Shown here piece after piece: positions 1-19,296 of a DNA stretch of 64,000 nt. Source of the DNA: Massilia antarctica (lineage in GTDB: Bacteria; Pseudomonadota; Gammaproteobacteria; Burkholderiales; Burkholderiaceae_D). The notes below the pieces were generated by a model. The model was not told the origin of the DNA, did not search any database, and saw only the letters and a list, made by a program, of their open reading frames with translations. How positions within the stretch are numbered: the first letter of the stretch is position 1; each line of letters begins with the position of its first letter. The translations under genes and the position numbers were made by a program. The stretch covers positions 2,480,001 through 2,544,000 of the forward strand of contig NZ_CP065053.1 in the NCBI RefSeq assembly GCF_015689335.1. The letters run 5' to 3'.

Positions 1-666
1 TCGCACCGCCGCGCCATCGCCGCGCAGCAGGCTGGCTTCTTCAAGGACGAGACCACCCCGGTCGAAATCATCACCCGCACGCCGAACCTGGCAACCGGCC
101 AGATTGACATCACGACCCGCACGGTCGATACCGATGAAGGCGCGCGCGCCGATTCGACCATCGAATCGCTCGGCAAATTGAAGCCGGTGTTCGCGGCCAA
201 GGGCACCGTCACCGCGGCCAACAGCTCGCAGATGTCGGACGGCGCCGGGGCGCTGCTGATCGTCAGCGAAAAAATCCTGCGCGAGCACAATCTGACCCCG
301 CTGGCGAAGTTTTCCTCGTTCGCGGTGCGTGGCGTGCCGCCTGAAATCATGGGCATCGGCCCGAAAGTGGCGATTCCCGCAGCATGCGCCGCCGCCGGCA
401 TCACCCAGGACCAGCTGGACTGGATCGAACTGAACGAAGCCTTCGCCGCACAGGCACTGGCAGTCATGGGCGACCTGGGTCTGGACCCGTCCAAGGTCAA
501 CCCGATGGGCGGCGCGATTGCGCTGGGCCATCCGCTGGGCGCGACCGGTGCGATCCGCGCCGCCACCGTGATCCACGCGCTGCGCCGGAATAACCTCAAG
601 TACGGCATGGTCACCATGTGCGTCGGTACCGGCATGGGCGCGGCAGGCATTTTCGAACGCGTATAA
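1..666 (+). CDS. Thiolase (acetyl-CoA acyltransferase), 3' part
   Basis: The frame is open from base 1, so the gene begins upstream of the window and the N-terminal half with the first catalytic cysteine is missing. About 221 residues remain. The C-terminal thiolase signatures are clear: NEAFAAQAL, then GGAIALGHPLGATGAIR with the catalytic histidine in GHPLG, and finally CVGTGMGAAGIFERV with the second active-site cysteine. The family cleaves 3-ketoacyl-CoA or condenses acetyl-CoA in the cytoplasm. A rho-independent terminator follows, then an enoyl-CoA hydratase on the same strand, so the pair looks like beta-oxidation. Whether it is a FadA-, PcaF- or PhaA-type enzyme cannot be decided from this part. 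Confidence 0.93.
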   Translation, partial: SHRRAIAAQQAGFFKDETTPVEIITRTPNLATGQIDITTRTVDTDEGARADSTIESLGKLKPVFAAKGTVTAANSSQMSDGAGALLIVSEKILREHNLTPLAKFSSFAVRGVPPEIMGIGPKVAIPAACAAAGITQDQLDWIELNEAFAAQALAVMGDLGLDPSKVNPMGGAIALGHPLGATGAIRAATVIHALRRNNLKYGMVTMCVGTGMGAAGIFERV

Positions 667-689
667 GCGTCGGTTAAAATAATGTCATC

Positions 690-730
690 AAGGGCGCTGC
701 GGTTTAACCTCGGCGCCCTTTTCACTTTTT
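690..730 (+). terminator. Rho-independent terminator after thiolase
   Basis: AAGGGCGC (690-697) pairs perfectly with GCGCCCTT (713-720) and is followed by TTCACTTTTT. It lies 24 bases after the thiolase stop and ends about 10 bases before the hydratase start, so the hydratase probably depends on read-through or on a promoter inside the thiolase gene. Confidence 0.75.
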
Positions 731-739
731 GGAGAATAC

Positions 740-1519
740 ATGGATATTTTGACGAGCAAGGCCGACGGCATCCTGACCATCGAATTTAACCGCATCGAGC
801 GCAAGAACGCGATCACCGGCGTGATGTACCAGGCCATGGCCGATGCGCTGGTCGGCGCCGAGAGCGACGACGCGGTGCGCGCGATTATCATCGCCGGCAA
901 GCCCGAGATTTTCACGGCCGGGAACGACCTGGACGACTTCATGAAAAATTCGGCCCCGGTCGAAGGCGTGCCGCCCGAAATGCGTCCGGTGTTCCAGTTC
1001 ATGCGCGCGCTCTCCGGCAGCAGCAAGCCGGTGGTGGCGGCGGTGTCCGGCGCGGCGGTCGGCATCGGTACCACCTTGCTGATGCACTGCGACCTGGTCT
1101 ACGCGGCCGACAATGCCAAGTTCTCGATGCCGTTCTCGCAGCTGGGACTGTGCCCGGAATTCGCATCGAGCCTGCTGCTGCCGCAGATGGCGGGTTTCCC
1201 GCGCGCGGCCGAAAAGCTGCTGCTCGGCGAAGCGTTTTTGGCGCAGGAAGCCTACGACATGGGCCTGGTGTCGAAAGTGCTGCCGCTGGAAGAACTGCGT
1301 CCGTACGCGCTGCGCCAGGCGGCCAAGCTGGTGGCGCTGCCCGCCGCCTCGATCCGCGCGACCAAGTCGCTGATGAAGCGCTCGCGCACTGCGGCCATCA
1401 ACGAGACCATGGGCGCCGAAAACGCCTTGTTCGGCGCCATGCTGCTCGCGCCCGAAGCGAAGGAAGCGTTCACCGCGTTCTTTGAAAAGCGCAAGCCGGA
1501 TTTTTCGAGGTTCGCCTGA
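740..1519 (+). CDS. Enoyl-CoA hydratase/isomerase
   Basis: A 259-residue crotonase-fold protein of normal family length. The oxyanion-hole segments are visible: AGKPEIFTAGNDLDDF near residues 50-66 and KPVVAAVSGAAVGIGTTLL near 95-113. The LGLCPEFASSLLLPQ segment near 135-150 has a glutamate where hydratases place a catalytic acid, but one usual glutamate is replaced, so the isomerase/hydratase split is uncertain. A ribosome site (TTTTGGAGAATAC) precedes the ATG. It follows a thiolase, which suggests fatty-acid or aromatic-acid beta-oxidation in the cytoplasm. Confidence 0.92.
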   Translation: MDILTSKADGILTIEFNRIERKNAITGVMYQAMADALVGAESDDAVRAIIIAGKPEIFTAGNDLDDFMKNSAPVEGVPPEMRPVFQFMRALSGSSKPVVAAVSGAAVGIGTTLLMHCDLVYAADNAKFSMPFSQLGLCPEFASSLLLPQMAGFPRAAEKLLLGEAFLAQEAYDMGLVSKVLPLEELRPYALRQAAKLVALPAASIRATKSLMKRSRTAAINETMGAENALFGAMLLAPEAKEAFTAFFEKRKPDFSRFA

Positions 1520-1554: not shown

Positions 1555-2064
1555 TTACCAGGACGATTGGTTCTTTGGGAGATCGTTGTTCGGATCGTAG
1601 ACGTTGATGGCATCGGCGCCGGTCAGCGCGTCAGTGTAGATGACAAGATTCTCTCCGCCGGTGATCGCGGAATTGAACAGGATTCCCTTTGCGTCGGCAG
1701 CAAGGACCTGATCGCCGATGACCCAGGATGGGGGTTCAATGCCTTGGTTGAAATGCATGTTCCGCCAGTCGCAGTAAAAATCTTGCCAGAGCGCGTCCCA
1801 GCCGCTGGTAAAGCCGCCGCGGAAGTCCACGATGGCGTTGATGCTTACGTTATAGCTGACCATGAGCCCGGGCGGCAGGAGCGCATCGAGCTGCTGGTAC
1901 TCGGCTAGGGCGGTCTCCAGCTCCAGTGACAGGTAGAGCGCATTGACACCAGGCCGGTTGGCGCGCCCGCCATAGGCGCCGGCACCGGCCCCCGAGGTCG
2001 GCGCAAATGACCATTTCGGCTGGTGGACCCGGTAGGCAACAGCGTTGAGCGGGGTAAGAATCAT
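1555..2064 (-). CDS. RES-domain toxin of a RES/Xre toxin-antitoxin pair
   Basis: A 169-residue protein with the RES layout: an arginine in AYRVH (residue 12), glutamates in the ALYLSLELETALAEY stretch (about 43-56) and a serine in LFNSAITGGENLVIY near the C-terminus. Known RES toxins degrade cellular NAD+, and this is inferred here. The start codon overlaps the antitoxin stop by 4 nt (2061-2064), which is the usual antitoxin-first, translationally coupled order. Length and layout fit a complete toxin. Confidence 0.88.
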   Translation of the reverse strand: MILTPLNAVAYRVHQPKWSFAPTSGAGAGAYGGRANRPGVNALYLSLELETALAEYQQLDALLPPGLMVSYNVSINAIVDFRGGFTSGWDALWQDFYCDWRNMHFNQGIEPPSWVIGDQVLAADAKGILFNSAITGGENLVIYTDALTGADAINVYDPNNDLPKNQSSW

Positions 2065-2477
2065 CCGATGTACCCGGCTTGTAGCGACTGGATGTACTTG
2101 ATGAGAGCGTCTGTGCGTTTTTCTGAAACGAGGTCCTGGGGCGTCTTGTAGTCGAATGTCGGCAGTGGATGATTCTTGAACCAGTAGATCGCTTTTTCGA
2201 TGCTGCCGCTAATATCGGTGGCAGCGCACATCACGCGCACCGATTCACGCAGGTACGACTGGATGGTCTCGGTGTCCGGTGCCAGCCTGACGGTGTTCCT
2301 GTGAACGTGTGCCTGCGCCGCGAGCGTCTGCATATCTACCCTGAAAACAAGTCCGAATCGTTTTGGGGAAATCGACGGGCTCGCCTCGGAATTGAGGAAA
2401 TTCATGAATTCGTCGAAGTTGCGATCGAATACAGGAACTGCCTCGCCGGCAGGGACGGTCATGTCTGCGGTAGCCAT
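2061..2477 (-). CDS. Antitoxin of RES pair, Xre/MbcA/ParS type
   Basis: A 138-residue protein. I start it at 2477 because AAAGGAGCAGAC lies directly before this ATG; a longer start at 2495 would run into the TGCACT repeats. It has an N-terminal helical part with VDMQTLAAQAHVHRNTV (an HTH-like segment) and a C-terminal toxin-binding part including SGSIEKAIYWFKNHPLPTF and TPQDLVSEKRTDALIKYIQSL, which is the DUF2384/MbcA pattern. It should bind and neutralise the RES toxin encoded immediately downstream and repress the operon. Confidence 0.85.
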   Translation of the reverse strand: MATADMTVPAGEAVPVFDRNFDEFMNFLNSEASPSISPKRFGLVFRVDMQTLAAQAHVHRNTVRLAPDTETIQSYLRESVRVMCAATDISGSIEKAIYWFKNHPLPTFDYKTPQDLVSEKRTDALIKYIQSLQAGYIG

Positions 2478-2490
2478 GTCTGCTCCTTTG

Positions 2491-2518
2491 TGCACTTTGT
2501 ATGCACTATCATTGCACT
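2491..2518 (-). promoter_or_regulatory. Three TGCACT direct repeats, candidate operator
   Basis: On the plus strand TGCACT occurs at 2491-2496, 2502-2507 and 2513-2518, exactly 11 bp apart, one helical turn. They lie immediately upstream of the antitoxin ribosome site. The likely role is autoregulation by the antitoxin; binding is inferred. Confidence 0.5.
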
Positions 2519-2695: not shown

Positions 2696-3658
2696 TCAAT
2701 GGAAGTGCTTTTGCCGCAATTGGCCTAGCCTGGAAAGATAGTCCTGATCACCAGCGTTCGGGTATTGGCGCTGTAGCGCCGCCAGCTCGTCGGCGTATGC
2801 GCTTCGCTGCGCCTGCTGCTGCTCGCTGCGCTGTTCCAGTTGCGCGATCTCCTGCGCCCGCTTGGGTGGGAAATGCCGCGCGAGCAAACGGTTCCGGAGC
2901 TGGTCCGCCGCCTGTGCGTCGCTGATGTCGAGGCGGGCCAGGCCCAGCTCGATGCGGTATTGCCCCATCGGCCCTTCTGCCGCGCGCAGGTCCTCATAAA
3001 ACGCCCCGTAATGCTGACCGCGCAAGTCTTCCACCCTTGCCAGGCGCGCCGCCAGCGACATGCCAGCCGCCTCGCCGGCGGCGAATTCGTTCACGGCGGC
3101 GGTAAAGCCGACCTGCGCCTTCTCGCGGCCGAACCACGCCTGCGTTTCCTCGCGTCCCATCGTCGCTTCGCGCAGCGCGGACAAGCGTTGCAAGCGCTGC
3201 GACAGCGGCGTGTCCATCTCCTGTACCAGGTGCGATTGCGCTTCCTTCACGGCGGGCAGGCGCTCGATGGCGCGTGACGCAATCGCCGCCGCGCGTGGGT
3301 CCGGCCAGGCGGCGACCGCGGCGCGCAGCCAGCGCTTGCAATCATCGATGCCGAGTGCGGCGCATTGTGCCTCACCCGCGCGCCACCAATCCTGCAAGCG
3401 GCCCTCGCGCAGCATCCGCGGGCCGTTCGCGGCAAGCGTGGCCGCTGCGCTCGCGCGCCGCTCGATGGCCGACGCGCGCACACCAGCTTCGCCCACCGCG
3501 CCGCCCGGCGCCGCGGACGCCACCGGTGCGGCACCCTGGTCCGCCAGCGCCACCGGGTGCGCCGCGACCGGATCGGGCACCCCGTCCGGCCCGACCAAGC
3601 CGATATAGATGGCCAAAGCAGCCGTGGCCGACGCGGCAACCAGGATCGCGGTGCGCAT
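2696..3658 (-). CDS. Lipase-foldase-like periplasmic chaperone (Lif/LimK-like)
   Basis: A 320-residue protein with a single N-terminal membrane anchor (residues 3-20), an Ala/Pro linker to about 60, then an almost entirely helical body rich in Arg, Glu, Gln and Ala. Two blocks resemble lipase secretion chaperones: LSALREATMGREETQAWFG and the C-terminal LGQLRQKHFH. Known members hold a secreted lipase in the periplasm while it folds. The canonical RxxFDYxLSAxGE motif is not visible, so it is diverged. It starts 7 bp after the sphingomyelinase stop and is the last gene of the operon. No lipase is nearby, so the client may be the sphingomyelinase or ceramidase; this is inference. Confidence 0.55.
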   Translation of the reverse strand: MRTAILVAASATAALAIYIGLVGPDGVPDPVAAHPVALADQGAAPVASAAPGGAVGEAGVRASAIERRASAAATLAANGPRMLREGRLQDWWRAGEAQCAALGIDDCKRWLRAAVAAWPDPRAAAIASRAIERLPAVKEAQSHLVQEMDTPLSQRLQRLSALREATMGREETQAWFGREKAQVGFTAAVNEFAAGEAAGMSLAARLARVEDLRGQHYGAFYEDLRAAEGPMGQYRIELGLARLDISDAQAADQLRNRLLARHFPPKRAQEIAQLEQRSEQQQAQRSAYADELAALQRQYPNAGDQDYLSRLGQLRQKHFH

Positions 3659-3665
3659 CGCCGGC

Positions 3666-4994
3666 TCAATAGGCGAACAAGCCGGCCACCGGGAAGTGGT
3701 CCGACAGGTCATGCGCGTACCACACCTCGTCGCGCAGGCTGCGCAGGATGCGCACGTTGTTCTCCTTGCGCACCGGCTGCCGGTTGTCGTTGGCCACCAT
3801 GATGTAATCGAGGTATTCGGTGGTGCCGCCAGACAGCGCACTGGTGGCGTTGACATTGACCGCCGCATCGAACGTGTAAGGGTAACCGGTGCTCGCCGGC
3901 GCCGAGGCCCGCAGAATCGACTGCATGCGAGCGTAATCGTCCGGGAACTTGAGCTTGTTGATATTCATGTCGCCGGCGATCAGCAGCGCGTCCGAGGCGG
4001 GGATTTTTTTGCTGTCGAGCATGGCGCGGATTTGTTCGAGGGCATGGAAACGCGTCTGGCGGGCTTCATCGCTATCCCTGGACGGCGTATGGGTGTTGCT
4101 CAGGTGGTAGGCTTTGCCGTTCTTCAGGATCTGGACATAATTGGCGCCCTTGTTCGCCAGGCAGTCGTCGCCGACGCAGCGGTCGAACACAATGATGTCG
4201 TCGGCCATGATCGGCCAGCGGCTGAGCACCATGGTGCCGCCATTGAGGAAGATGTTGGAAGGAATATCGACCAGACGCGACTGATAGGGGAAGGCGGTGC
4301 CAACCTTGGAGAGGAAGCGCGCGCGGCAGTCATTGTCGAAGATTTCCTGCAGCGTTACCGCGTCGTAGCCGTCCAGATTGGCGGCAATCTCGTCCAGCCG
4401 CGCGCAAATATTACTGGCGACCACCGGCAGGGCCCATACGTTATAGGTCAGGACCTTGAATTCGTCGGGCGCGCTTGCCGGCTCGACCGCGTTTTTGTTG
4501 TGAACCACGTAGTGGAGGTCGTCGTAACCGCCGGTGAATTTGGCGCGGTAGGAGGTCACCGACGCCTTCTGCGCGAACGTGGTGTCACGCTGATGGACGT
4601 TGCGGTCGCCGTACCATGGATCGTCGAAGCCGGCGCCACGCGCGGAGTGCAACAGGTTGCTTGAAAAAAGCGTGCCGGTCAGCTTCTGGCGCAGCACCAT
4701 GCTGCTGTCGCCGCTGCTCACGGTGGTGTCGAAATAAAACGTCTTGCCATTGGTGATGCCGATGTTCCGGTTCATCCACATCACACGCCGGGTGGCGTAG
4801 GCGGGAATCACGCTCGCTTCCCGTCCCCAACTGCTGCCCAGCGCAAGCTGCGCGTCGCCGCTCTGGCTGACCTGGACCGTGACCGGGGCGGCGGTGGTGT
4901 TGGTGACATACACATACGATTCGGCGTGCGCCGCGTTGCCAAACAGGGCGCCCAGGCACAGGCAGGATAGAACAAGTCGTAGAACGTGCGGCAT
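3666..4994 (-). CDS. Secreted sphingomyelinase C (neutral, Mg-dependent type)
   Basis: A 442-residue exported protein. The signal peptide is residues 1-24, cut after AHA. Residues 25 to about 175 form a beta-rich N-terminal domain of unknown role. The endonuclease/exonuclease/phosphatase fold follows, with N185 in LTYNVWALP, E217 in TLQEIFDND, GGTMVLSRWPI, SNTHTPSRDSDEARQTR, IAGDMNINK and the terminal D432-H433 in LSDHFPV. This set matches bacterial sphingomyelinase C, which hydrolyses sphingomyelin to ceramide and phosphocholine. GGAG lies 9 bp before the ATG. It sits between ceramidase and a foldase-like gene, so its product would feed the ceramidase. Confidence 0.9.
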   Translation of the reverse strand: MPHVLRLVLSCLCLGALFGNAAHAESYVYVTNTTAAPVTVQVSQSGDAQLALGSSWGREASVIPAYATRRVMWMNRNIGITNGKTFYFDTTVSSGDSSMVLRQKLTGTLFSSNLLHSARGAGFDDPWYGDRNVHQRDTTFAQKASVTSYRAKFTGGYDDLHYVVHNKNAVEPASAPDEFKVLTYNVWALPVVASNICARLDEIAANLDGYDAVTLQEIFDNDCRARFLSKVGTAFPYQSRLVDIPSNIFLNGGTMVLSRWPIMADDIIVFDRCVGDDCLANKGANYVQILKNGKAYHLSNTHTPSRDSDEARQTRFHALEQIRAMLDSKKIPASDALLIAGDMNINKLKFPDDYARMQSILRASAPASTGYPYTFDAAVNVNATSALSGGTTEYLDYIMVANDNRQPVRKENNVRILRSLRDEVWYAHDLSDHFPVAGLFAY

Positions 4995-5050
4995 ACTGAT
5001 CTCCGGTGGTTGAAAATCCAGGCTCGATGGGCCAACGTGAGTTTGCTTCC

Positions 5051-7060
5051 TTAGTTGACCTGGAAGGTGCGGCTGGTGCCGCTCAGCGCGCGGATGCTGC
5101 CATCCCAGCCATTCTTGTAGTTGCCGTCATGCCGGATCCGGTACTGGCCGGGGGCAGCGTCGGCGGGAATGTCCCACGAAATGGCGGCCTTGGAGCTGCC
5201 CCACACCGGATCGACCCGCACCCAGCGGTAGATGGTGTTCCAGTCGCCATCGGTGGCGACGGTGCGCCAGGCGGCGCCTTCCCAGCGCTGCACTTCAAGG
5301 AAGCTGCCGTTCTGGCGCAGGTCGTTTTTCGGATGCCCGGTCCAGAACTCGACATCGACCCGCTGGCCGCGCGCGTAGCTGGCGTTGGCCTGGCGTACCA
5401 CGTCGCCAAAACTCTTGAACAGCGGCGTGTTATCGAGGACCACGCCGGTCTGGAACGACAGCTGCTGGTTCGACAGGTCGCGCGTGGGCGCGCTGGGATA
5501 GGCCGGCACGCCCTGGCGCATCGCCGTGGCCAGTTCGTGGTAGCTTTGCTGATAGGCGCCCAGTGTCCACTTGCCGAAGTGGGTAGAGGCGCCTTCGTAG
5601 TGCTGGGCGTCGTATTCCTCGGGTGTGGTGATGTAGCCGGAGTACGCGTTGGCATAGCCGGCGATGACGACATGTTTGACACTGTCGCCCAGCGCTGCCT
5701 GGACGGTCTCGCGTATCCGGCGGCCGGCCATGATGGTCAGCTCTCCCGGCGCGGCCACGATCGCCAGCTGGCCGATGCGCACGATCGATACCGGCAGCAC
5801 TTCCGGCGACCAGGGCACGGGCTGCTGCACGCCTGGCGCCAGCAGCACCGGCTTGACGCCATGGCAGTCGCGCACCCATTGCGGCGCTGGTGTGAGGATG
5901 CCGCCAATCGCCTGGAAGAAGGGATTGCCAGCCAGGTCCCCTTCATTGAATCCATCCAGGCCGCGGCCATCTTCCGTGCCGGCCGCGAACGCGGTGCCCA
6001 GCGCCGCCGGGCAGGTGCTGCGCGCGCGGCCGTCGGCAAAATTGGCGGCCACGGTGAGGCGCGAAAAATCGATGAAGCGCTGGCGGTAGTCCAGGGTGCC
6101 GGCCAGCGGCTCGAGCGCGCCGTTGTAGATCGCCAGCGCCTTTTGCAACTGGCGTTCGCCGATGATGCGCGTGTTATCGAATTCGTTGCGGGTGGGGCCG
6201 GTCCCGTCGAGGTTCAGGTTGGGTGTCATGTCGCCGGCGTTCGACTGCGCGAAGGCCGCCACGAAATCGCCGTCCGCGTTGTAGCGCACACCTTTGAGGT
6301 CGTGTTCCCAGCGCCAGGCCGCGTAGCCCTTGTTGTCGGAGCTGAGCAGGTGGTTGTTGGGGGTCATCGATACGCCGTGCGTGGCAAACCAGCTGATGAC
6401 GCCCACGTCATCGGCGCCTTGCCTGAAGCGCAGCACCGTCATGTCCGGGTCAATCGGGCTGTTCCAGCGCTCGCGTTCTGCCAGCGGGTTGCGCAGGTAG
6501 GCGGGCAGCGAGCGGTTGTTGCTGGCATCGGTCAGCTGGCCCTTGCCGATGGCGATCGAGCCCGGTTTCAAGTCGCGGTGCGCCTTGTCGATGGCGGCCA
6601 CGATGCCGCCGACCACGGCGTCGAAGGTGCGTTTGTTGTAACCGTAGGTGGTGATGTTGTACAGCGCGTAGTGGGAAAATCCGCCCGACCCGGAGTGCGT
6701 ATGGGTGGCCGCCAGGATTACGTTGTCGGGCCCATACAGGCTGCCGTACCTGGCCCGCAGTTGCTTGAGCACCGCCTGCTGCACGCCCTGGAATACCATG
6801 CCCAGGTCGTTGTTGACGAAGACGATGCGCTTGCCGCTGGCCTGGTCGGCCACGATAAAGGCGCGGGCGCGCTGGCGCATGTGGATGCCCGCGCTCACTT
6901 GCGAGAGCGAGGCATAACCCATCATGCCCACTTCGGCGGCTTCGCCGGTGATGTCGGACATGCCGCGTCCGACCAGATAAGGATCGGCGCTGGCCGCGCC
7001 GCATGCCGCCGACAGTGCGATGGCCAGGGTCAAGCGCAGGGAATGGATGTGCGATGCCAT
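5051..7060 (-). CDS. Secreted neutral ceramidase
   Basis: A 669-residue exported protein. The start at 7060 is chosen for its AAGGAGACTCAC ribosome site. The signal peptide covers residues 1-25. Zinc-binding histidines are visible at 120 and 122 in AATHTHSGSGGF and at 228 in WFATHGVSM; later the APGELTIM glutamate and the YANAYSGYITTPEEY tyrosine complete the usual site. A C-terminal Ig-like domain ends the protein. The family cleaves ceramide to sphingosine and fatty acid. The motif that normally carries the catalytic serine (GDVSPN type) reads GDMTPN here, with threonine 279 in its place. The gene precedes sphingomyelinase in the same operon. Confidence 0.92.
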   Translation of the reverse strand: MASHIHSLRLTLAIALSAACGAASADPYLVGRGMSDITGEAAEVGMMGYASLSQVSAGIHMRQRARAFIVADQASGKRIVFVNNDLGMVFQGVQQAVLKQLRARYGSLYGPDNVILAATHTHSGSGGFSHYALYNITTYGYNKRTFDAVVGGIVAAIDKAHRDLKPGSIAIGKGQLTDASNNRSLPAYLRNPLAERERWNSPIDPDMTVLRFRQGADDVGVISWFATHGVSMTPNNHLLSSDNKGYAAWRWEHDLKGVRYNADGDFVAAFAQSNAGDMTPNLNLDGTGPTRNEFDNTRIIGERQLQKALAIYNGALEPLAGTLDYRQRFIDFSRLTVAANFADGRARSTCPAALGTAFAAGTEDGRGLDGFNEGDLAGNPFFQAIGGILTPAPQWVRDCHGVKPVLLAPGVQQPVPWSPEVLPVSIVRIGQLAIVAAPGELTIMAGRRIRETVQAALGDSVKHVVIAGYANAYSGYITTPEEYDAQHYEGASTHFGKWTLGAYQQSYHELATAMRQGVPAYPSAPTRDLSNQQLSFQTGVVLDNTPLFKSFGDVVRQANASYARGQRVDVEFWTGHPKNDLRQNGSFLEVQRWEGAAWRTVATDGDWNTIYRWVRVDPVWGSSKAAISWDIPADAAPGQYRIRHDGNYKNGWDGSIRALSGTSRTFQVN

Positions 7061-7092
7061 GTGAGTCTCCTTGTTCTGGTGAGAATGGACTG

Positions 7093-7986
7093 TCAAAAAC
7101 GCTTGGCCAGCGACAGGATCAGCGCCGCGCGATCCACCTTCCTGGTATTTCCCGCACTATCGGGCACCACCGCCAGTTCGCGGTTGCGCAGCACGGCGCC
7201 CGCCAGCTCGGCGCCAAAATCGAGGCCCCAGCGCGTGTGCACGATCCCCAGCTTGTAGTCAACCAGATCGGCGTCGCGGAAATGGCGCATTTTTTGAAAA
7301 CCGATGTGCGCAATCAGCTTGTTCCTGCCATCGAGCTTGTGCTTGATGCCGACGTCGAGCAGGTGCGAGCCGCGCGAGTGTTTGAGGCCACCGTCGTAGC
7401 AGGCGATCGCCTTGCCCGGGGCGCCCCCGGCCAGTACCGCCGGCAGATAAGCCGTGCCGCAGATGGTGGCCGTGTTATTGCCGCGCAGTTCGTCGCTGAA
7501 GACATACAGATAGCGTGCCTCGATGGCGCCATAGGCAAACTCGAACACGCCGTAGCTGGTATCGAATTTGGTGTTGGTCACGCCCGTCGGTTCGCCCGTG
7601 CTCCAGTCGATGCCGGTCGGCGCGTCGTTGGCCTTCGCGCCCGGGAACCACTCCTGTGCCACACCAGCGCCGAAGTGCCAGCCATCGGGATTGCCCCAGC
7701 GGTAGCCGAGCGCGCCGGTCACCTGCAAGCTATTGGTGCCCGGGAAAATCTCCTTGCGGACCGTGCCCAGTTGCAGATAGCCGACCACGCCCGATTCGTG
7801 CACCGCTTCCATCGTCAGTTCGGCGCCGGGGCGGTTGTAGGTATCGGATACGCCGCGGTTCTTGCGGTCGGTGAGCAGCTTCGCTTCGATGTCGAGCGAG
7901 TAGCTCTGGATCGCCGGCTCGGCGGCGTGGGCTTGGCCGGTGTGGATGACGCCCGCCAGCGCGGCCAGCACGATAAATTTGTTCAT
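7093..7986 (-). CDS. Outer-membrane protein, Gcw_chp/TorF-like
   Basis: A 297-residue protein with a signal peptide (cleavage after AHA, residue about 21) and alternating beta-strand character ending in a phenylalanine (LSLAKRF), as in outer-membrane beta-barrels. The DRKNRGVSDTYNRPGAEL stretch near residues 40-60 resembles the conserved start of the Gcw_chp family. Its start overlaps the DUF2147 stop by 4 nt and the ceramidase starts 32 bp later. A porin role for sphingosine, ceramide or fatty-acid entry is inferred from the operon. It could equally be a structural barrel with no transport role. Confidence 0.68.
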   Translation of the reverse strand: MNKFIVLAALAGVIHTGQAHAAEPAIQSYSLDIEAKLLTDRKNRGVSDTYNRPGAELTMEAVHESGVVGYLQLGTVRKEIFPGTNSLQVTGALGYRWGNPDGWHFGAGVAQEWFPGAKANDAPTGIDWSTGEPTGVTNTKFDTSYGVFEFAYGAIEARYLYVFSDELRGNNTATICGTAYLPAVLAGGAPGKAIACYDGGLKHSRGSHLLDVGIKHKLDGRNKLIAHIGFQKMRHFRDADLVDYKLGIVHTRWGLDFGAELAGAVLRNRELAVVPDSAGNTRKVDRAALILSLAKRF

Positions 7987-8402
7987 GGCGTCTCCTTCGA
8001 CTTGCAGCCGGCGGGGATGCTGGCAACGCGGGTCATGATCTCGGTCTCTCCCAGCAGTTCGGTGCCGATGTAGGCGCGCACCAGCAAGGTGTCGCCCTTG
8101 GTGCGCACGATGCCCTTGTAGTTTTTCCTGGTGCGGGGATCGTGCACCCAGCCGTTGCGCCAGGCGTCGTCCTGCCAGGTATTGAGCTTGGCAATCATGA
8201 CGCCGCACGCGTCGTCCGGCGTGCCGGCATCCTTGTCCCAGACGATGGTGCCGCACAGCGCATCCTTCGGCTCGGCGCAGGCCTTGAACGCGATGACCGC
8301 GGCCTTGTCGGCGCTGAGCCACAGACCGGGTACGGTGTCCGGCGCGGCCCATGCCGGCGCCACCCATGCACATGACAGCAACATCATCGCTATTGCTCGC
8401 AT
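7983..8402 (-). CDS. DUF2147 exported protein
   Basis: A 139-residue protein with a signal peptide (residues 1-20, cleavage after AWA). The DUF2147 pattern is clear: GLWLSADKAAVIAF near the start, then CAEPKDALCGTIVW, and WVHDPRTRKNYKG. These small periplasmic proteins form a beta-barrel that may bind a lipid or hydrophobic ligand, but no function is established. AAGGAGACGAG precedes the ATG. It overlaps the next gene by 4 nt. In this operon it could be a carrier for sphingosine or its oxidised products, which is inference. Confidence 0.75.
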   Translation of the reverse strand: MRAIAMMLLSCAWVAPAWAAPDTVPGLWLSADKAAVIAFKACAEPKDALCGTIVWDKDAGTPDDACGVMIAKLNTWQDDAWRNGWVHDPRTRKNYKGIVRTKGDTLLVRAYIGTELLGETEIMTRVASIPAGCKSKETP

Positions 8403-8434
8403 CTCGTCTCCTTGTGGTGCTTCGGTTTTGGTGC

Positions 8435-9712
8435 TTATGGCATGGGTGTCAGTACCGGCCATCGCTGCGTGATCCGGCCCGACTCCATCACGACGATGTC
8501 GCCGAATTGCTGGAGCACGGACTCGCTCTGGCGTGGCCGAAGGAAGATGACATCGTCCACGTGCAGTTGTTGTGCGCCGGAGCCAAGCAGGACCTGCTGG
8601 TTCGACGACGTTCCATACAGGCCGCTGGGCACGATGCCGGCCGGCGAGACGGGATCGGCCAGCCAGTTGCCGCCATAGATGAACCAGGCGTGCGACTGGT
8701 TCACGTCCCACGCACGGACGGCGGCGCCGATCCATTCGACCCCGTTCGGCATGTCGAATTGCGCCGGCGCTTTCAGGACCGGCGTGGCGATGAATGCGGC
8801 CGGCGCCAGGTCGCCCAGCAGTGCGGTGTCGAAGTCGCCCGGCTTGACGAGGGCCGAGCCGAGCGCCACTTCGTTGGCCGCGCCTTTGCCGTCGTGCAGG
8901 CGATAAGTCGGCGAGCCGCCGGCGTTGAGGGTCAGGCCGTCCGCCGCCGCGCCGCCATGCAGCGCGCGGGTGGCCTGCGCGGCATAGTCGCGGTAAATGC
9001 CAAGCGCGTCGGCCAGGGCGCGCGCGCGCAGGCCCGGCAGGTTAGGCAGCTTGGTGATGTGGGCGTCGTAACCCATCATGCCGGACCACTGCAGGCGCGG
9101 TTCCGACTTCACGATGTCGAGCATCTGCTGCAGCGCGGCCGCACTGGCAACGCCGCCGCGATGCAAGCCGACGTCGATTTCGACATTCACGCGCAGCTGC
9201 AGCTGGCGCTGGCGTGCCAGGTCGCGGTACTGTGCCAGGCGCTGGGGACTGTCGACCAGCCATTGCAACTGGCGCGCCGGATCGAAGCCGCCATTCTTGA
9301 AACGGTCGTAGAACTGGGCGGCGGCGGCCACCGGCAGCGGCTTTCCAAGCAACAGATCGAGCGCCGGGCGCTGCGCGGCCAGCTGCTCCAGGTAGGCCAG
9401 GTTAAACACCATCAGGCGCTCGGTGCGCATTGCGGTGATCAAGTCGTCGAGCAGGGGCAGGCAGGGCAGGGATTTGGCCACCAGGCGCAGGTGCATGCGC
9501 CCGCCGATGTTGCGCATGACCTGGGCGGCATTGGCCAGCATGCGGTCGCGGTCGAGCACCATGGTCGGCGTGGCGATGCCGGCTGCGCGCAACGCCGCGG
9601 CCACGTGCGCGAAGTAGGCGTCGTGCGGGGCGCCGTGCGCGCGCGGACGCAGGGCCAGTGCGCCGGCGCCAGCCAGGCCGGCGATGGCCGCCAGCGCGGT
9701 GCGGCGCCTCAT
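8435..9712 (-). CDS. Exported PLP-dependent fold-type III enzyme (DSD1/D-threonine aldolase-like)
   Basis: A 425-residue protein starting with MRRRTALAAIAGLAG, a twin-arginine-like export signal. The body is an alanine-racemase-type barrel: TPTMVLDRDRM, the PLP lysine K80 in LRLVAKSLP, NVEIDVGLHRGG, SGMMGYDAHI and LNAGGSPTYRLH. A C-terminal metal-binding domain with HVDDVIFLRPRQSESVLQQFGD fits D-threonine aldolase or D-serine dehydratase relatives. An exported PLP enzyme of this type is unusual. From memory, Pseudomonas aeruginosa sphB has the same architecture, beside an oxidase (sphC) and a cytochrome (sphD). Sphingosine, with its amino-alcohol head, is the likely substrate, by inference. 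Confidence 0.8.
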   Translation of the reverse strand: MRRRTALAAIAGLAGAGALALRPRAHGAPHDAYFAHVAAALRAAGIATPTMVLDRDRMLANAAQVMRNIGGRMHLRLVAKSLPCLPLLDDLITAMRTERLMVFNLAYLEQLAAQRPALDLLLGKPLPVAAAAQFYDRFKNGGFDPARQLQWLVDSPQRLAQYRDLARQRQLQLRVNVEIDVGLHRGGVASAAALQQMLDIVKSEPRLQWSGMMGYDAHITKLPNLPGLRARALADALGIYRDYAAQATRALHGGAAADGLTLNAGGSPTYRLHDGKGAANEVALGSALVKPGDFDTALLGDLAPAAFIATPVLKAPAQFDMPNGVEWIGAAVRAWDVNQSHAWFIYGGNWLADPVSPAGIVPSGLYGTSSNQQVLLGSGAQQLHVDDVIFLRPRQSESVLQQFGDIVVMESGRITQRWPVLTPMP

Positions 9713-11097
9713 GCCGGCACTCCGAACAGGGCGCGCAAGTGGGGATTGAGCATGCGCCCGTGCGGGTCCATCTGCTGGCGCAGCGCCTGGAAGTCCTTCC
9801 AGCGCGGGTACAGCGCGGCCAGTTCGGTGGCGCTGAAGTTATGCAGTTTGCCCCAGTGCGGACGGCCGCCGTATTTGCGAAACACCGGGCCGATTTCCGA
9901 GGTCAGGTAGTCGTAGGCTTCGCCGTGCGCCGCATGCACCGCGATCGAGCAACTGTCGCGCTGGTAGAAGGGACTGAGCCAGGCGTCATCGGCTTTAACG
10001 AAGCGAAATTCAAGCGGGAAGAATACGTCGTTGCGCCGTTCCAGGGTGCGGATCACGTCGCGCACGCAGGCGATGCCCACCTCGCGCGGCACGTGGCATT
10101 CGGTTTCGTTAAAGCGGGTCGGACGCACATTCGAGAGCAGGCGGAACGAGCGGTTGGTGGCGTGTTCGGTCAGGTCCGCGTCGATCAGCCTGGCCGCGCT
10201 CCAGCGTCGCAAGCCGGGGAACTTGCCGAGCCAGTCGCGTAGCTGGCGCAGGTCGCGCAGCATGTCTTCGTCTTGCGACGGTGGCATCAGGATGTCGCTG
10301 CCGGCGTAGGCGTCGTGCGTGATGGCGGCGGCGTAGCCGGTGAAAGGCAGGTAGTAGAACTCAAAGTGGCGATGGATGCGCGCCAGTTCCGGCGCCTGTT
10401 GCAGCATCTCTTCGAGCGGCTTTAGCCACACCTTGCGCTGCAGGCTGTGCGCGGGCACCACGCGCATCGTCAGCTCGGTGATGACGCCAAGGCTGCCCAG
10501 CGACACGCGCGCGGCTGCCATCTGGTCGGCGTGGCGCTCTTGCTGCCACTCGGTGACGTCGCCCTGCGGCGAGACGATGCGCATGCCGATCACGTCCGCA
10601 TGCAGCGCCGGCAGCGCGGCGCCGGTGCCGTGGGTGGCGGTGCTGATCGCGCCGGCCAGCGACTGCATGTCGATGTCGGGCAGGTTGCGCAGCGCCAGGC
10701 CAGCGCCGTCGAGCTGGCGCGACACTTGCGACAGGCGGGTGCCGCCTTTCAGGGTGGCGCTCATGGCCGCCTTGTCGTGGGAGCGCAGGCCGGAGAGGCG
10801 GTCGAGCGAGACGATCGTACCAAAGGTCGGCACCAGGGGAGTGAACGAATGGCCGGCGCCCACGCAGCGCACGGCGCCGCCCGATGCGCGCAGCAGCGCG
10901 GCGACGGCAGCTTCGTCGGCCGGTGCGGCCAGGGCGCGCGCCGTGCAGTGCGCGCTGTCCGACCAGTTTTTCCAGGTGACGGCGGCTTGGGCAGGCGCTG
11001 CCGCCGCCAGCGCCGGGATGGCGCGGCTGGCCAGCAGGCTCGCGGCCACCGCCCCGGTTTTCAGGAACAACCTGCGGCGCCGGGACAGGGGGCTCAT
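9709..11097 (-). CDS. Tat-exported FAD oxidase, ALO/GULO family
   Basis: A 462-residue protein with a clear twin-arginine signal (SRRRRLFLKTGA at residues 5-16). The FAD-binding PCMH domain shows VRCVGAGHSFTPLVPTFG, LRNLPDIDMQSLAGA and ISTATHGTG. The C-terminal ALO-type domain contains the HWGK motif (RPHWGKLHNF). Such enzymes oxidise a hydroxyl or lactone and pass electrons on to a cytochrome or oxygen. The gene overlaps cytochrome c upstream (4 nt) and the PLP enzyme downstream (4 nt), so the three are translationally coupled. A role in oxidising sphingosine is inferred from the cluster. Confidence 0.87.
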   Translation of the reverse strand: MSPLSRRRRLFLKTGAVAASLLASRAIPALAAAAPAQAAVTWKNWSDSAHCTARALAAPADEAAVAALLRASGGAVRCVGAGHSFTPLVPTFGTIVSLDRLSGLRSHDKAAMSATLKGGTRLSQVSRQLDGAGLALRNLPDIDMQSLAGAISTATHGTGAALPALHADVIGMRIVSPQGDVTEWQQERHADQMAAARVSLGSLGVITELTMRVVPAHSLQRKVWLKPLEEMLQQAPELARIHRHFEFYYLPFTGYAAAITHDAYAGSDILMPPSQDEDMLRDLRQLRDWLGKFPGLRRWSAARLIDADLTEHATNRSFRLLSNVRPTRFNETECHVPREVGIACVRDVIRTLERRNDVFFPLEFRFVKADDAWLSPFYQRDSCSIAVHAAHGEAYDYLTSEIGPVFRKYGGRPHWGKLHNFSATELAALYPRWKDFQALRQQMDPHGRMLNPHLRALFGVPA

Positions 11098-11453
11098 GGC
11101 GTGGCCCCGGCGCTCATGAAGCGGGTGAGTGCGCGCAGGTCGTCGGGCGAGCAATCGTTGCACTGGCCCCGTGCCGGCATCGCGTTGAGGCCCTCGGCGG
11201 CATGCCTGACCATCTGGTCCATGCCCTGCGCGAGACGGCGTTGCCAATGTGGGGTGAAGCCGGTGAGGGGGGCGCCGCTGGCCGCGACGGCGTGGCAGGC
11301 CATGCAGGAGCGTTCGTAGCGTTCGGCCAGTTGCGGGTCGCTCGGGCGTGCGGCCTGGGCCCGTTGCAGATCGGCCGCGGCGGGCTTGTCGACTGACGCC
11401 GAACAGCCACACATGCCCATCGCGAAAACCGCCATGCCCAGTATCGTTCGCAT
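11094..11453 (-). CDS. Small c-type cytochrome, membrane-anchored or lipoprotein
   Basis: A 119-residue protein. I choose the ATG at 11453, preceded by GGGGTGAACGG, over one at 11474. The N-terminus MRTILGMAVFAMGMCGCSAS is a signal with a cysteine that could be a lipobox. One heme site, CMACH, lies near residue 50. It is the first gene of the sphingolipid operon and overlaps the flavin oxidase by 4 nt, so it is the probable electron acceptor of that oxidase. A methionine in ALNAMPARG probably supplies the second heme ligand. Confidence 0.85.
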   Translation of the reverse strand: MRTILGMAVFAMGMCGCSASVDKPAAADLQRAQAARPSDPQLAERYERSCMACHAVAASGAPLTGFTPHWQRRLAQGMDQMVRHAAEGLNAMPARGQCNDCSPDDLRALTRFMSAGATP

Positions 11454-11482
11454 CCGTTCACCCCGCAGCCGCATAGTTATCG

Positions 11483-11538
11483 GAACAATGTTCTGGATAA
11501 TAACGACGTATCAAAAATAAAACAACGTTTTATTTTTG
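11483..11538 (-). promoter_or_regulatory. Promoter and palindromic operator of sphingolipid operon
   Basis: On the minus strand, TTGTTT (11525-11520) and TATTAT (11502-11497) are 17 bp apart. A perfect 12-bp inverted repeat with a 3-bp centre covers 11512-11523 and 11527-11538 (CAAAAATAAAAC) and overlaps the -35 box. A second short palindrome, GAACAATGTTC (11483-11493), lies at the expected start point. The layout fits a repressor site for the neighbouring TetR protein. The AT-rich stem lacks the GC content of a terminator. Confidence 0.6.
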
Positions 11539-11554
11539 GGAGTGTTGCGGGGGT

Positions 11555-12205
11555 TTATGTGCGGAAACGGTGCAGGATTCCGGTCATTAATACATCGAGC
11601 AAGTCTTCCAGGTGCTGGTCGAAGGCGGCGTGTTCGAACCACTGTTCGGATTCGCCGAACACGAGCCGCAGCGAGGTCATGCCGTGGATACCTTCCCAGA
11701 AGATCTGGCCCATGGAGTCGAGGCGGTCGGCGCGCACCACACCCGATTCGGCCAGGGCCGCGAACAGCTGGCGGCCGAAGGCGTAGGGGTCCTGGGACTG
11801 GTTGCCATGTTCGATCTTGGCGCTTTCGACCGGCGCGTGGGGCCGGCGTTCCAGGAAGACCAGCGCGTACTGGTCGGGATGGAGCATGCCGAACTTGACG
11901 TAGGCACGGCCGGCGCGCTTGATGTTGTCGATCGGCGGCAGTGCCGGGTCGGTGGCGGCGCGCATGGCCTTGGCGAGGTTGAGCAGGTCGCTGTCCATGG
12001 CCTGGGTAATGAGCGTGGCCTTGTCCTCGAACAGCGCATACACCACGGTGGTGGAAAAGCCAGCTTCCTCGGCAACCTTGCGTAAGGTTATCGCGCGCGC
12101 ACCGCCCGCCTTGATCAGTTTTCTGACGGCCTTGATGATGTCTTTACGGCGCTGTTCGGATTCCCTCAGCTTGCGATCCTGCACGCTGCTTGTTGCCTTC
12201 ACCAT
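11555..12205 (-). CDS. TetR-family regulator
   Basis: A 216-residue protein, started at 12205 where AGGATTGAATCAC precedes the ATG; the open frame extends further but has no ribosome site. The N-terminal HTH is typical: RRKDIIKAVRKLIKAGG, then ITLRKVAEEAGFSTTVVYALFEDKATL (about residues 20-65). The C-terminal part, with FGMLHPDQYALVFLERRP, resembles the WHG ligand-binding domain. It lies 101 bp upstream of the eight-gene operon on the same strand, with a palindromic promoter between. It is the likely repressor, perhaps released by sphingosine or a related long-chain amine; the ligand is inferred. Confidence 0.85.
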   Translation of the reverse strand: MVKATSSVQDRKLRESEQRRKDIIKAVRKLIKAGGARAITLRKVAEEAGFSTTVVYALFEDKATLITQAMDSDLLNLAKAMRAATDPALPPIDNIKRAGRAYVKFGMLHPDQYALVFLERRPHAPVESAKIEHGNQSQDPYAFGRQLFAALAESGVVRADRLDSMGQIFWEGIHGMTSLRLVFGESEQWFEHAAFDQHLEDLLDVLMTGILHRFRT

Positions 12206-12477
12206 GTGATTCAATCCTGTTAGATGCTTGGTACGCGGCCCGAGCCTATCAGAAATCATACGGGGGTGGGCAAGAATACGATTGGCGGTGTGGGCTGCCG
12301 GGGCTGGGCGGGGGCTTGCCTGGGAGGCATGCCTGAGCGCGTTGACTGGGGTGGCGCGTGATTGCGTTCATGTTTCGCTTTGCCGTCGGACTGCCGGGTT
12401 GCGCTCGGCGCTTCGGGGCGCGAGCCGCATCTCGGGGGCAACGTCGGGGCCGATGCGCCTGTCCACCAGCGCATGTG
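12206..12477. other. Gene-free stretch upstream of TetR
   Basis: About 270 bp of mixed composition between the TetR start and the end of the interrupted membrane-protein gene. I see no convincing reading frame, terminator or promoter beyond the TetR ribosome site. Confidence 0.4.
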
Positions 12478-12594: not shown

Positions 12595-12796
12595 ATCGGC
12601 TATGCTGTGAGTTTTTGCCGTCCCGGAATGCGGTCAAGGGCGGCGCGCGTTGTGCGCGTGCCGGCGTAGCGCACCCTTGACGGCATGTAGGGCGCATACG
12701 CTGGGCCATGGTCGTCGACGCGGCAGGCCGTGGCGATGACCATGGATAACAGGCGTGCCGGCGTATCCGGCTGGAGAAGGCAGTTTGAGTATTAGC

Positions 12797-14131
12797 ATGG
12801 AAACCTTGTTCACCACCGCGCTGGGCTTGCAAGCTCCGTGGGAGGTGACTGAATTCAAGCTCGACACTGGGGCGCGACGGATCGATTTTGAAGTACGCTA
12901 TCAAAGCGAGGAGATGGCCTGCCCCGTTTGCGAGACACCAGCACAGAAGATCCACAGCCGCATGCGGCGCAGCTGGCGACATCTCGATTTCTTCCAATAT
13001 GAAGCTTGGGTGCACGCCGAAGTACCGCGCGTGCGCTGCCGCTCCTGCGGCAAGACCTCGCGCATTGAGGTGCCGTGGTCGCGACCTGGAAGTCATTTCA
13101 CCTTGCTTTTCGAGGCGCTGGCCATGTCCTTGTGCCAGACGATGACGGTGGCCGAGACCGCCCGGCTGCTGCGTGTGACGGCGCATCGCCTGTGGCGCAG
13201 CGTCGGCCATTACGTCGCGGTGGCGCGCGGCAAGGATGACATGAGCGACGTGAAGCTCATCGGCATCGACGAGACCAGCCTTCGGCGCGGTCACCAGTAT
13301 GTGACTGTTGTTCACGATCTGGACGCCAAGCGCCTGCTGTTCGCCACCGAAGGCCGCGGCCACGAGACGGTAGCCGCTTTCAAGGCCGATCTGATTGCCC
13401 ATGGCGGGCAGGTGCAGGGAATCGCGCATGTCTGTATGGATATGAGCCAGGCCTACGTCAAGGGCGTCACCGAGCAATTGCCGCAGGCTCAGATCAGCTT
13501 CGACCGTTTCCACGTCATTGCCATGGCCAACGATGCCATGGACAAGGTCCGCAAGCTGGAAATGGCGGAACAGCCGCGTGTCGTTCGCAGCGCCTTGGGC
13601 ACCGAACGCAAGACCGTCCGCGCATTGATGTGGGGAATGCGTCGCGACGCGCGTAGCTGGACGGCACGCCAACGCGACACGATGTATCTCTTGCAGCGCT
13701 CCCGACTCAAGACTGCAAGGGCGTGGCGGCTGAAGGAAGCATTGCGGGACGCCTATCGGCAGGCCGTTACCGCCAACAACGCGGAGGTGGCGCAGTCAGC
13801 GCTGGAGAGTTGGATGTCGTGGGCTCGCCGGAGTCGACTCGAGCCGTTCAAGAAGCTGGCGTTGACGCTGCGCGAGCGACTGCCGGGCGTCGTGCGCGGC
13901 ATGCTCGATGGCCGCAGTAACGCCTATGTCGAAGCGATGAACGGCATGCTTCAGCAATCCAAGCGTGCAGCGCGCGGTTTCCGCAGCGCCGCCAATTTCA
14001 TTGCCATCGCCTATCTGCGCATGTCCAAGCTGACTCATTTGCCTGTCAATCCCTTGCAGACAGCAGGAAAAAGGTCTGTTTCAATTAGGCGATACCGCGA
14101 CGGTCGTCAAGTTTCACCGAAAACGTCATAG
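12797..14131 (+). CDS. ISL3-family transposase
   Basis: A 444-residue DDE transposase. I use the ATG at 12797 (METLFTTALGL), the family's usual N-terminus; a GTG at 12755 would be longer. An N-terminal zinc-ribbon is seen in CPVCETPA and CRSCGKTSR (about 40-90), followed by a helix-turn-helix with TVAETARLLRVTAHRLWR. The catalytic acids are likely in GIDETSLRRG, ISFDRFHVI and YVEAMNGML. The TAG stop lies inside the right terminal repeat. The frame is intact. Confidence 0.95.
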   Translation: METLFTTALGLQAPWEVTEFKLDTGARRIDFEVRYQSEEMACPVCETPAQKIHSRMRRSWRHLDFFQYEAWVHAEVPRVRCRSCGKTSRIEVPWSRPGSHFTLLFEALAMSLCQTMTVAETARLLRVTAHRLWRSVGHYVAVARGKDDMSDVKLIGIDETSLRRGHQYVTVVHDLDAKRLLFATEGRGHETVAAFKADLIAHGGQVQGIAHVCMDMSQAYVKGVTEQLPQAQISFDRFHVIAMANDAMDKVRKLEMAEQPRVVRSALGTERKTVRALMWGMRRDARSWTARQRDTMYLLQRSRLKTARAWRLKEALRDAYRQAVTANNAEVAQSALESWMSWARRSRLEPFKKLALTLRERLPGVVRGMLDGRSNAYVEAMNGMLQQSKRAARGFRSAANFIAIAYLRMSKLTHLPVNPLQTAGKRSVSIRRYRDGRQVSPKTS

Positions 14132-14690: not shown

Positions 14691-14897
14691 CATGTCGTTA
14701 TACACATCTTTTTTTATAATAAAATCAACGACTTGCGCCTGACATCGCTAGGGCGCCGTCGACATGAAACGACAGAGAATCAGTGCGGTTGATCTTAAAA
14801 TACCCGCATTTCGCTTAATTTTTAGGCAAAACCTCATGGAAATCGCCGCCCCGGGCTGAAATGACGTTGCGCGGAAAAAGATGTGTATAACGATATG
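14691..14897. mobile_element. 207-bp MITE-like element with 9-bp target duplication
   Basis: Terminal inverted repeats are CATRTCGTTATACACATC plus a T-run: left 14691-14713 and right 14875-14897, 23 bp with one mismatch. The direct repeat ACTTTAACC occurs at 14682-14690 and 14898-14906. There is no coding capacity inside. A 9-bp duplication and the TTATACACATCT core recall the Tn5/IS50 group of the IS4 family, so it may be a non-autonomous derivative. It is inserted in the Rhs gene. Confidence 0.85.
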
Positions 14898-19099: not shown

Positions 19100-19296
19100 G
19101 GTTTTCCAGTCTTTGGCAAGAGATGCGGGCAAAAATTGCCGCACAGAAAACCAGCTTATCGAATTTCGGATTGGAGATATTGCCGTGTCGCCATTCTGCC
19201 GTTGCGGCTGAAGCATGCCGGCGGGGTGGCAGGCCACAGCGGGGCGCCGGCAGCGGACCGGACGTGCGCAGGTCCGGCCGGACGCCAGGGGGGCCT

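Follow-up and report, generated by a model that had tools for sequence, protein, structure and literature searches.

A TetR-linked gene cluster in Massilia antarctica that may couple a sphingomyelinase and its Lif-family partner to ceramidase and sphBCD-like genes

Can one bacterial operon encode both the release of sphingosine from sphingomyelin, a membrane lipid of animal type, and the subsequent oxidation of this sphingosine, and what is the role of the lipase-chaperone (Lif) family protein encoded at its end? These questions are raised by nine genes of Massilia antarctica, which we analysed within a window of 64,000 nucleotides (positions 2,480,001–2,544,000 of the 7.43-Mb single contig). 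We conclude that the locus is probably an operon under TetR control that serves the catabolism and detoxification of sphingolipids and is built from two modules. On balance we also favour a wider interpretation, in which a divergent branch of Lifs would be encoded together with a family of secreted sphingomyelinases, and devoted to their folding, in Acinetobacter, Alcanivorax, Aeromonas, Vibrio, Chitinimonas, Massilia and others, so that Lifs would not be lipase-specific; in Massilia the pair would have been joined to a TetR-controlled ceramidase–sphBCD unit, and the resulting operon would lead, self-contained, from sphingomyelin to the oxidation of sphingosine, its exported SphD being a Q-x-E relative of the D-β-hydroxy-amino-acid aldolases without their usual metal site. 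The features concerned, in window coordinates and in the order of the genes, are as follows.

11555–12259, minus strand: TetR-family regulator, 234 amino acids as the longest frame (PF00440, PF13305); a homologue precedes the cluster in genomes G010, G004, G013, G007 and G006.
11512–11538, no strand assigned: perfect inverted repeat with 12-nt arms and a 3-nt spacer between the TetR and SphB genes, a candidate TetR operator.
11497–11525, minus strand: promoter-like TTGTTT-17-TATTAT, found by eye, overlapping the inverted repeat.
11094–11474, minus strand: SphB-like cytochrome c with one CMACH haem site and a lipobox-like start, both read by eye (PF13442); 50% identity to Pseudomonas aeruginosa SphB over its C-terminal 99 residues.
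9709–11097, minus strand: SphC-like FAD/ALO oxidase with a twin-arginine translocation (Tat)-like signal, RRRRLFLK, read by eye (PF04030, PF01565; TIGR01679 above cut-off); 41% identity to P. aeruginosa SphC.
8435–9712, minus strand: SphD-like, apparently exported pyridoxal 5′-phosphate (PLP) enzyme with conserved Lys80 and R-P-x-Q-S-E replacing the metal site (PF01168); 45% identity to P. aeruginosa SphD.
7983–8402, minus strand: predicted exported DUF2147 protein (PF09917), conserved in the cluster.
7093–7986, minus strand: Gcw_chp outer-membrane-type protein (PF09694, E 1e-6), possibly a channel, conserved in the cluster.
5051–7060, minus strand: neutral ceramidase (PF04734 and PF17048 above cut-off; P. 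aeruginosa ceramidase 2zws, E 4e-208, residues 39–680).
3666–4994, minus strand: sphingomyelinase C-like phosphodiesterase with an extra N-terminal domain (PF03372; TIGR03395 E 3e-46, below cut-off), matching solved bacterial sphingomyelinases.
2696–3658, minus strand: LifO, a foldase of the Lif (lipase chaperone) family whose N-terminus carries a hydrophobic segment (Lipase_chap PF03280, E 6e-11, above the curated cut-off), so assigned also from an AlphaFold2 model with Foldseek and from its pairing with the sphingomyelinase.

The more general novelty of the locus is the pair formed by the sphingomyelinase (SMase) and LifO. The preliminary description of this DNA, made from the sequence, had called the latter foldase-like, which the Lipase_chap match bears out; the gene deserved more weight than it was given there. 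The AlphaFold2 model of LifO (predicted local distance difference test score, pLDDT, 85) is all-helical, and Foldseek ranks two lipase foldases, 9g8u_B and 2es4_D, at the top, each with a probability of 1.00, ahead of a third match at 0.10. A scan of named genomes found 185 relatives of the SMase, and the best 80 of these 185 loci were kept, the other 105 being outside the sample. The seven catalytic-type residues of solved SMases that were checked are kept by the window SMase and by 80/80 of these relatives, and at all 80 loci, from many genera, the SMase gene is followed by a reading frame of Lif size and directly at its 3′ side by a Lif-family gene. A first profile built from three Lifs recognized 52 of the 80 at E < 1e-4, and a 55-sequence profile added the other 28, with one frame per locus; from the second round onwards the profile had been trained on the very loci that it then scored, and it scored none of their 1657 other frames. 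When used alone as a tblastn query, LifO of the window detected 43 of the 80 loci, and Pfam Lipase_chap recognizes 46/81 SMase-linked Lif members at E ≤ 0.01. The gap between the two genes is −4 to +20 nt in 74 loci and up to +194 nt in the rest (simple start rule), and SMase and Lif distances correlate with r 0.90 over the 80 loci, to which shared species history contributes.

The likeness to the lipase-specific foldases Lif/LipB (2es4, 9g8u) extends over the Lipase_chap domain, the N-terminal hydrophobic segment, the helical fold as modelled and a gene placed directly after that of an exported enzyme, whereas LifO adjoins a sphingomyelinase of unrelated fold instead of a cognate lipase and is far in sequence from the lipase Lifs of its own genome. 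Two further Lipase_chap genes are present in that genome, one after an alpha/beta hydrolase (Lif E 1.6e-43) and one downstream of a class 2 lipase gene, from which a single gene for a peptidylprolyl isomerase (PPIase)-like protein, below cut-off, separates it; since both adjoin lipase-type genes, the lipases of this genome seem to have Lifs of their own. The SMase–Lif profile matched one of these two at E 2e-7 and did not score the other, and a tree with only two lipase Lifs separated these from SMase Lifs with a weak support of 0.49. As an observation in its own right, the row of class 2 lipase, PPIase/SurA-like protein (below cut-off) and divergent Lif (L203, 1088–3699, at approximately 7.25 Mb) is possibly a two-chaperone lipase unit.

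The structural and profile evidence for LifO also has a weaker side, which counts against our assignment: the Foldseek E-values (0.0075 and 0.011) and rmsd (root-mean-square deviation) values of 10–11 are poor, and a sequence-profile search of the PDB with the 81-row Lif profile returned no Lif, nor did a PDB sequence search with LifO alone. Characterized Lifs, moreover, serve lipases, and P. aeruginosa LipB is assigned to the distant lipC gene as well (PMC4713064); on this view LifO would fold a lipase whose gene is elsewhere, and its place beside the SMase would be accidental. We regard this as very unlikely in view of the presence of a Lif-family gene at every one of the 80 SMase loci against none of the other frames, and of the correlated distances, partly a matter of species history; as a stray lipase foldase LifO was rejected on the ground that both of the other PF03280 genes already have lipase-type neighbours.

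The pairing is not universal, since two full-length Vibrio SMases (L057 and L058, 33% identity) have no Lif-like neighbour. Weaker SMase-like matches were found in 7/368 other genomes of a class-wide sample (369 genomes with our own included), and the short SMase-like loci L047 and L048 of that sample gave no Lif match. In Vibrio sp. THAF191d (L056) the neighbour does not itself match Lipase_chap and was assigned as Lif-like by a small profile; here the SMase and this neighbour lie between two long exported-looking proteins (2924–10822), the upstream one an M9 collagenase. Open-licence literature searches returned, among the matches listed, no paper pairing a sphingomyelinase with a Lif-type foldase; in the matching passages of PMC8003266 and PMC9299443, a Lif or steric chaperone and a sphingomyelinase are mentioned in unrelated places. 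PMC4713064, which defines the membrane-bound chaperones of the type II secretion system, names as their clients lipases, proteases, a serine carboxypeptidase, a pectin acetylesterase and a phospholipase C, with no sphingomyelinase among them. The same source describes CpaA/CpaB of Acinetobacter, which resemble the present pair in that a non-lipase secreted enzyme has its own membrane-bound chaperone gene next door; CpaB has an SRPBCC-type domain, whereas LifO has Lipase_chap.

How firmly, then, is this pair tied to the remaining genes? All nine run on the minus strand from 12259 to 2696 in the order first described, namely TetR, SphB, SphC, SphD, DUF2147, the Gcw_chp outer-membrane protein (OMP), ceramidase (Cer), SMase and LifO, and the eight-gene set behind the TetR gene spans 2696–11474. 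With refined starts (SphB 11474, SphC 11097, SphD 9712, DUF2147 8402, OMP 7986, ceramidase 7060, SMase 4994 and LifO 3658), the intergenic gaps from TetR to LifO are +80, −4, −4, +32, −4, +32, +56 and +7 nt, and therefore, of the seven junctions within the eight-gene set, six are either 4-nt overlaps or gaps no longer than 32 nt; the tight packing reported earlier holds, with the count of five corrected to six. An automatic scan reported no terminator-like site on the minus strand across the operon region. By tblastn, the order TetR-B-C-D-DUF2147-OMP-Cer was found again in relatives G010, G004 and G013, and in G007 and G006 with SphB undetected (the G006 assembly is 48% complete, and several of its cluster genes are split among different frames), while G017 keeps the order with TetR missing. 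Chance adjacency of the eight genes was rejected because the core order recurs in other genomes.

Ceramidase (PF04734) was found in ten, SphD in 13 and both in eight of 100 relatives, our own genome included; seven of these eight carry both in one cluster, and G025 has them on separate short contigs. In the class-wide sample (SphD cut-off E ≤ 1e-40, ceramidase E ≤ 1e-3), SphD occurs in eight and ceramidase in 16 genomes and, with our own genome excluded, ceramidase is present in 6/7 SphD genomes against 15/368 overall (hypergeometric 1e-8), figures to be taken as indicative, given the relatedness of the genomes and a test selected once the lists had been seen. G137 has a distant ceramidase (31%) between the end of the SphC gene and SphD. 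The SMase has matches in five of the 100 relatives, with the SMase–LifO pair inside the cluster in our own genome (G000), G004 and G010 and on a contig of its own in G079. The full nine-gene unit is therefore, as observed, a rare arrangement of three genomes of one genus, and literature searches found no ceramidase–sphingomyelinase operon in this bacterial group. The suggestion that the system is portable was not borne out: the complete unit was found only in these three genomes, and since no plasmid record is common to the SphD list (four records) and the SMase list (18 records), a portable element was rejected.

Several observations speak against our main reading. SMase–LifO is absent from four of the seven clusters, the three that have it all belonging to one genus; in the class-wide sample, 6/7 SphD genomes have no ceramidase in the stretch around SphD, adjacency being confined to G137; the 56-nt gap 5′ of the SMase gene could conceal a second transcript start; and the NCBIfam equivalogs give 158 of 248 bits for sphingomyelin phosphodiesterase and 596 of 1200 bits for neutral ceramidase, both below cut-off. 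By tblastn, no ceramidase, OMP, DUF2147, TetR or sph gene was found in the available flanks of 79 of the 80 named SMase loci, four of these flanks being under 12 kb. Two independent functions might accordingly lie side by side, a conserved ceramidase–sphBCD core for ceramide and sphingoid bases of fungi, plants or other bacteria, and SMase–LifO as a later-acquired, secreted phospholipase-type enzyme with another main substrate, as its sub-threshold score would favour, and with its own transcript, as the gap would. We think this rather improbable, as three species share the strand and order of Cer-SMase-LifO at 87–94% protein identity, no terminator was reported on the operon strand, and the substrate of the ceramidase is the product of the SMase.

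Within the core, the identification of neutral ceramidase is supported by the full-length match to the P. aeruginosa enzyme 2zws, and SphB, SphC and SphD show 50, 41 and 45% identity to their P. aeruginosa counterparts over most of their length, so that the similarity goes beyond that of the superfamilies, as first supposed; the order B-C-D is common to both. The P. aeruginosa record used for comparison, taken from a plasmid collection, carries the cytochrome c, oxidase, PLP enzyme, a transporter and sphR by name, together with argB, dut and coaBC. The nearest solved relative of SphC is xylitol oxidase 2vfr, an alditol oxidase. The Tat-like starts of SphC and SphD and the lipobox-like start of SphB were all read by eye. 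The annotated start of P. aeruginosa SphD (NZ_CP070468.1, L055 8866–9060) omits an in-frame upstream stretch, NRRKFMFAGLGAGALLAGAAAW, that is Tat-like by eye, and therefore this protein too looks exported, like SphD of the window.

The SphR regulon of P. aeruginosa (sphA, sphBCD and cerN) thus resembles the present unit in its homologous trio of the same order and its homologous neutral ceramidase. It differs in that cerN (PA0845) lies apart from sphBCD (PA5328–PA5326; PMC3900636), as the preliminary description had stated, and in its AraC-type regulator SphR with several sites, whereas the window has one TetR, one site and one unit. P. aeruginosa also uses PlcH (PMC5150637), whereas the window SMase is of the Bacillus/Listeria type. 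None of the window proteins of the set, to which the SphR search was confined, matches SphR or SphA at E 1e-3, and SphA, which matches Phenol_MetA_deg, and the Gcw_chp protein belong to separate families by sequence. Another related system is the TetR-SphB-SphC-SphD-DUF819 unit on the Ruegeria pomeroyi megaplasmid (L061), with a trio at 44, 45 and 45% behind a TetR gene; its TetR is dissimilar to ours at E 1e-3, it has no similar inverted repeat (ten mismatches), and no adjoining ceramidase or SMase is annotated. DUF819 membrane proteins stand beside the sphBCD genes both in Ruegeria (L061, 6539–11322) and in Yoonia (L062, 12591–15671), where they are possibly transporters of a product.

The repeat in front of sphB, CAAAAATAAAAC-GTT-GTTTTATTTTTG at 11512–11538, is the candidate site of control. 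All six clusters compared within the genus share an identical 23-bp core, while the flanking bases vary and TetR is 58–98% identical to that of the window. When up to three mismatches are allowed, our own genome has a single such site and lacks the reversed control pattern, and shuffles of the window gave an expectation of 0 sites. Among the 13 sequences compared, a version with four mismatches precedes ceramidase in G025, and in G047 one with five is found upstream of sphB; in the remaining five (G017, the second G025 contig, G052, Ruegeria and P. aeruginosa) the 7–10 mismatches amount to no site at all. The overlapping promoter-like element was not reported by an automatic promoter scan. The simplest reading is that the repeat serves as a TetR operator dedicated to this one operon.

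What reaction might SphD perform? PF01168 is matched by 15/15 SphD rows, all of which keep the PLP lysine, Lys80, and the fold-type III PLP domain is homologous to that of the D-threonine and D-3-hydroxyaspartate aldolases (profile alignment, probability 99.7). The alignment used eight templates of the D-serine-dehydratase/D-threonine-aldolase type from relatives, chosen for carrying the H-x-C/D motif, with four of 12 loci dropped. SphD shares the domain and the lysine with these aldolases (4v15, 7yqa, 6qkb) and with D-threo-3-hydroxyaspartate dehydratase; its differences are that it appears to be exported and that it has Q-x-E where they have H-x-C/D, Q395 (14/15 rows) and E397 (15/15 rows) aligning where the templates have H and C/D. 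PF14031 was matched by none of the 15 SphD sequences, and no PF14031 protein is present in our own genome. A classical metal-dependent D-threonine aldolase was rejected for SphD on account of the replaced ligands; the C-terminal half of the SphD structure model is of low confidence (mean pLDDT 62). By Cahn–Ingold–Prelog (CIP) reasoning, oxidation of natural sphingosine at C1 leads to a β-hydroxy-amino acid of the D-series, which suits the SphD superfamily. Our preferred reading, which we hold at about even odds, is a retro-aldol reaction of SphD that dispenses with the usual metal. An oxidation/aldol route has already been published as a proposal: in 2014 LaBauve and Wargo suggested that sphingosine is oxidized by SphC to an aldol, from which SphD would release glycine and a long aldehyde (PMC3900636). 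What is added here is that the C-terminal metal site of SphD is altered.

The loss of the metal pair is a point against this reading, and so are results on P. aeruginosa: according to the relevant passages of a 2025 study (PMC11893366), sphB and sphC are required for sphingosine disappearance and growth and sphD is dispensable in the growth assay, and its authors left the direct action of SphB/SphC on sphingosine open, not having identified the product. The claim of a whole route from sphingomyelin to oxidized sphingosine in one unit holds for the genes and their homologies, and for the step after sphingosine it is what we infer. An alternative would have sphBCD take no direct part in sphingosine degradation, SphC oxidizing some other periplasmic compound, the operon detoxifying rather than feeding, and SphD, without the ligands of its aldolase and dehydratase relatives, acting as a racemase, dehydratase or something else. 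This we consider unlikely, given the genomic association of SphD with ceramidase and their physical linkage in seven clusters of relatives, and we retain direct degradation as the working interpretation.

In the route that we propose, predicted as to its reactions, direction of flow, secretion and repression, the second module would begin the process: an exported SMase C-like enzyme would reach its fold in the periplasm with the help of LifO, a Lif-family foldase of its own that is anchored in the membrane, leave through type II secretion (GspD of this genome is above its cut-off) and cut sphingomyelin to ceramide. The first module (ceramidase, Gcw_chp protein, DUF2147, SphD, SphC and SphB) would then act, the exported ceramidase giving fatty acid and sphingosine, and the periplasmic Tat-exported flavin oxidase SphC oxidizing sphingosine, most simply at the C1 hydroxyl, with electrons passing to the lipoprotein cytochrome c SphB. 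In a PLP reaction of retro-aldol type, SphD would split the resulting 2-amino-3-hydroxy product into hexadecenal and a C2 amino compound, which would be glycine if oxidation proceeds as far as the acid, and TetR may repress the promoter until it is bound by a lipid product. At the level of the pathway this scheme is well supported by homology and co-occurrence, the biochemical steps being predicted from them.

The surroundings of the operon are mixed. Beside its end lie a RES-domain protein and an overlapping Xre/MbcA/ParS-type partner, the latter below the Pfam cut-off (1555–2495, minus strand), which are likely to be a toxin–antitoxin pair, and near the same end, on the opposite strand, are fatty-acid oxidation genes for the C-terminal part of a thiolase and an enoyl-CoA hydratase (178–1519, plus strand). 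An ISL3-family transposase gene (12755–14131, plus strand) is directly upstream of the TetR gene, and a large RHS-repeat protein is encoded at 14834–19237 (minus strand).

The pairing of SMase with Lif leads to the general prediction that such sphingomyelinases depend on a foldase of their own and, if this is true, the substrate range of the Lif chaperone family, so far tied to lipases, would widen. An operon that would unite substrate release, oxidation and a candidate aldolase in an environmental-looking Massilia may offer a compact system for identifying what the sph genes of bacteria turn sphingosine into.

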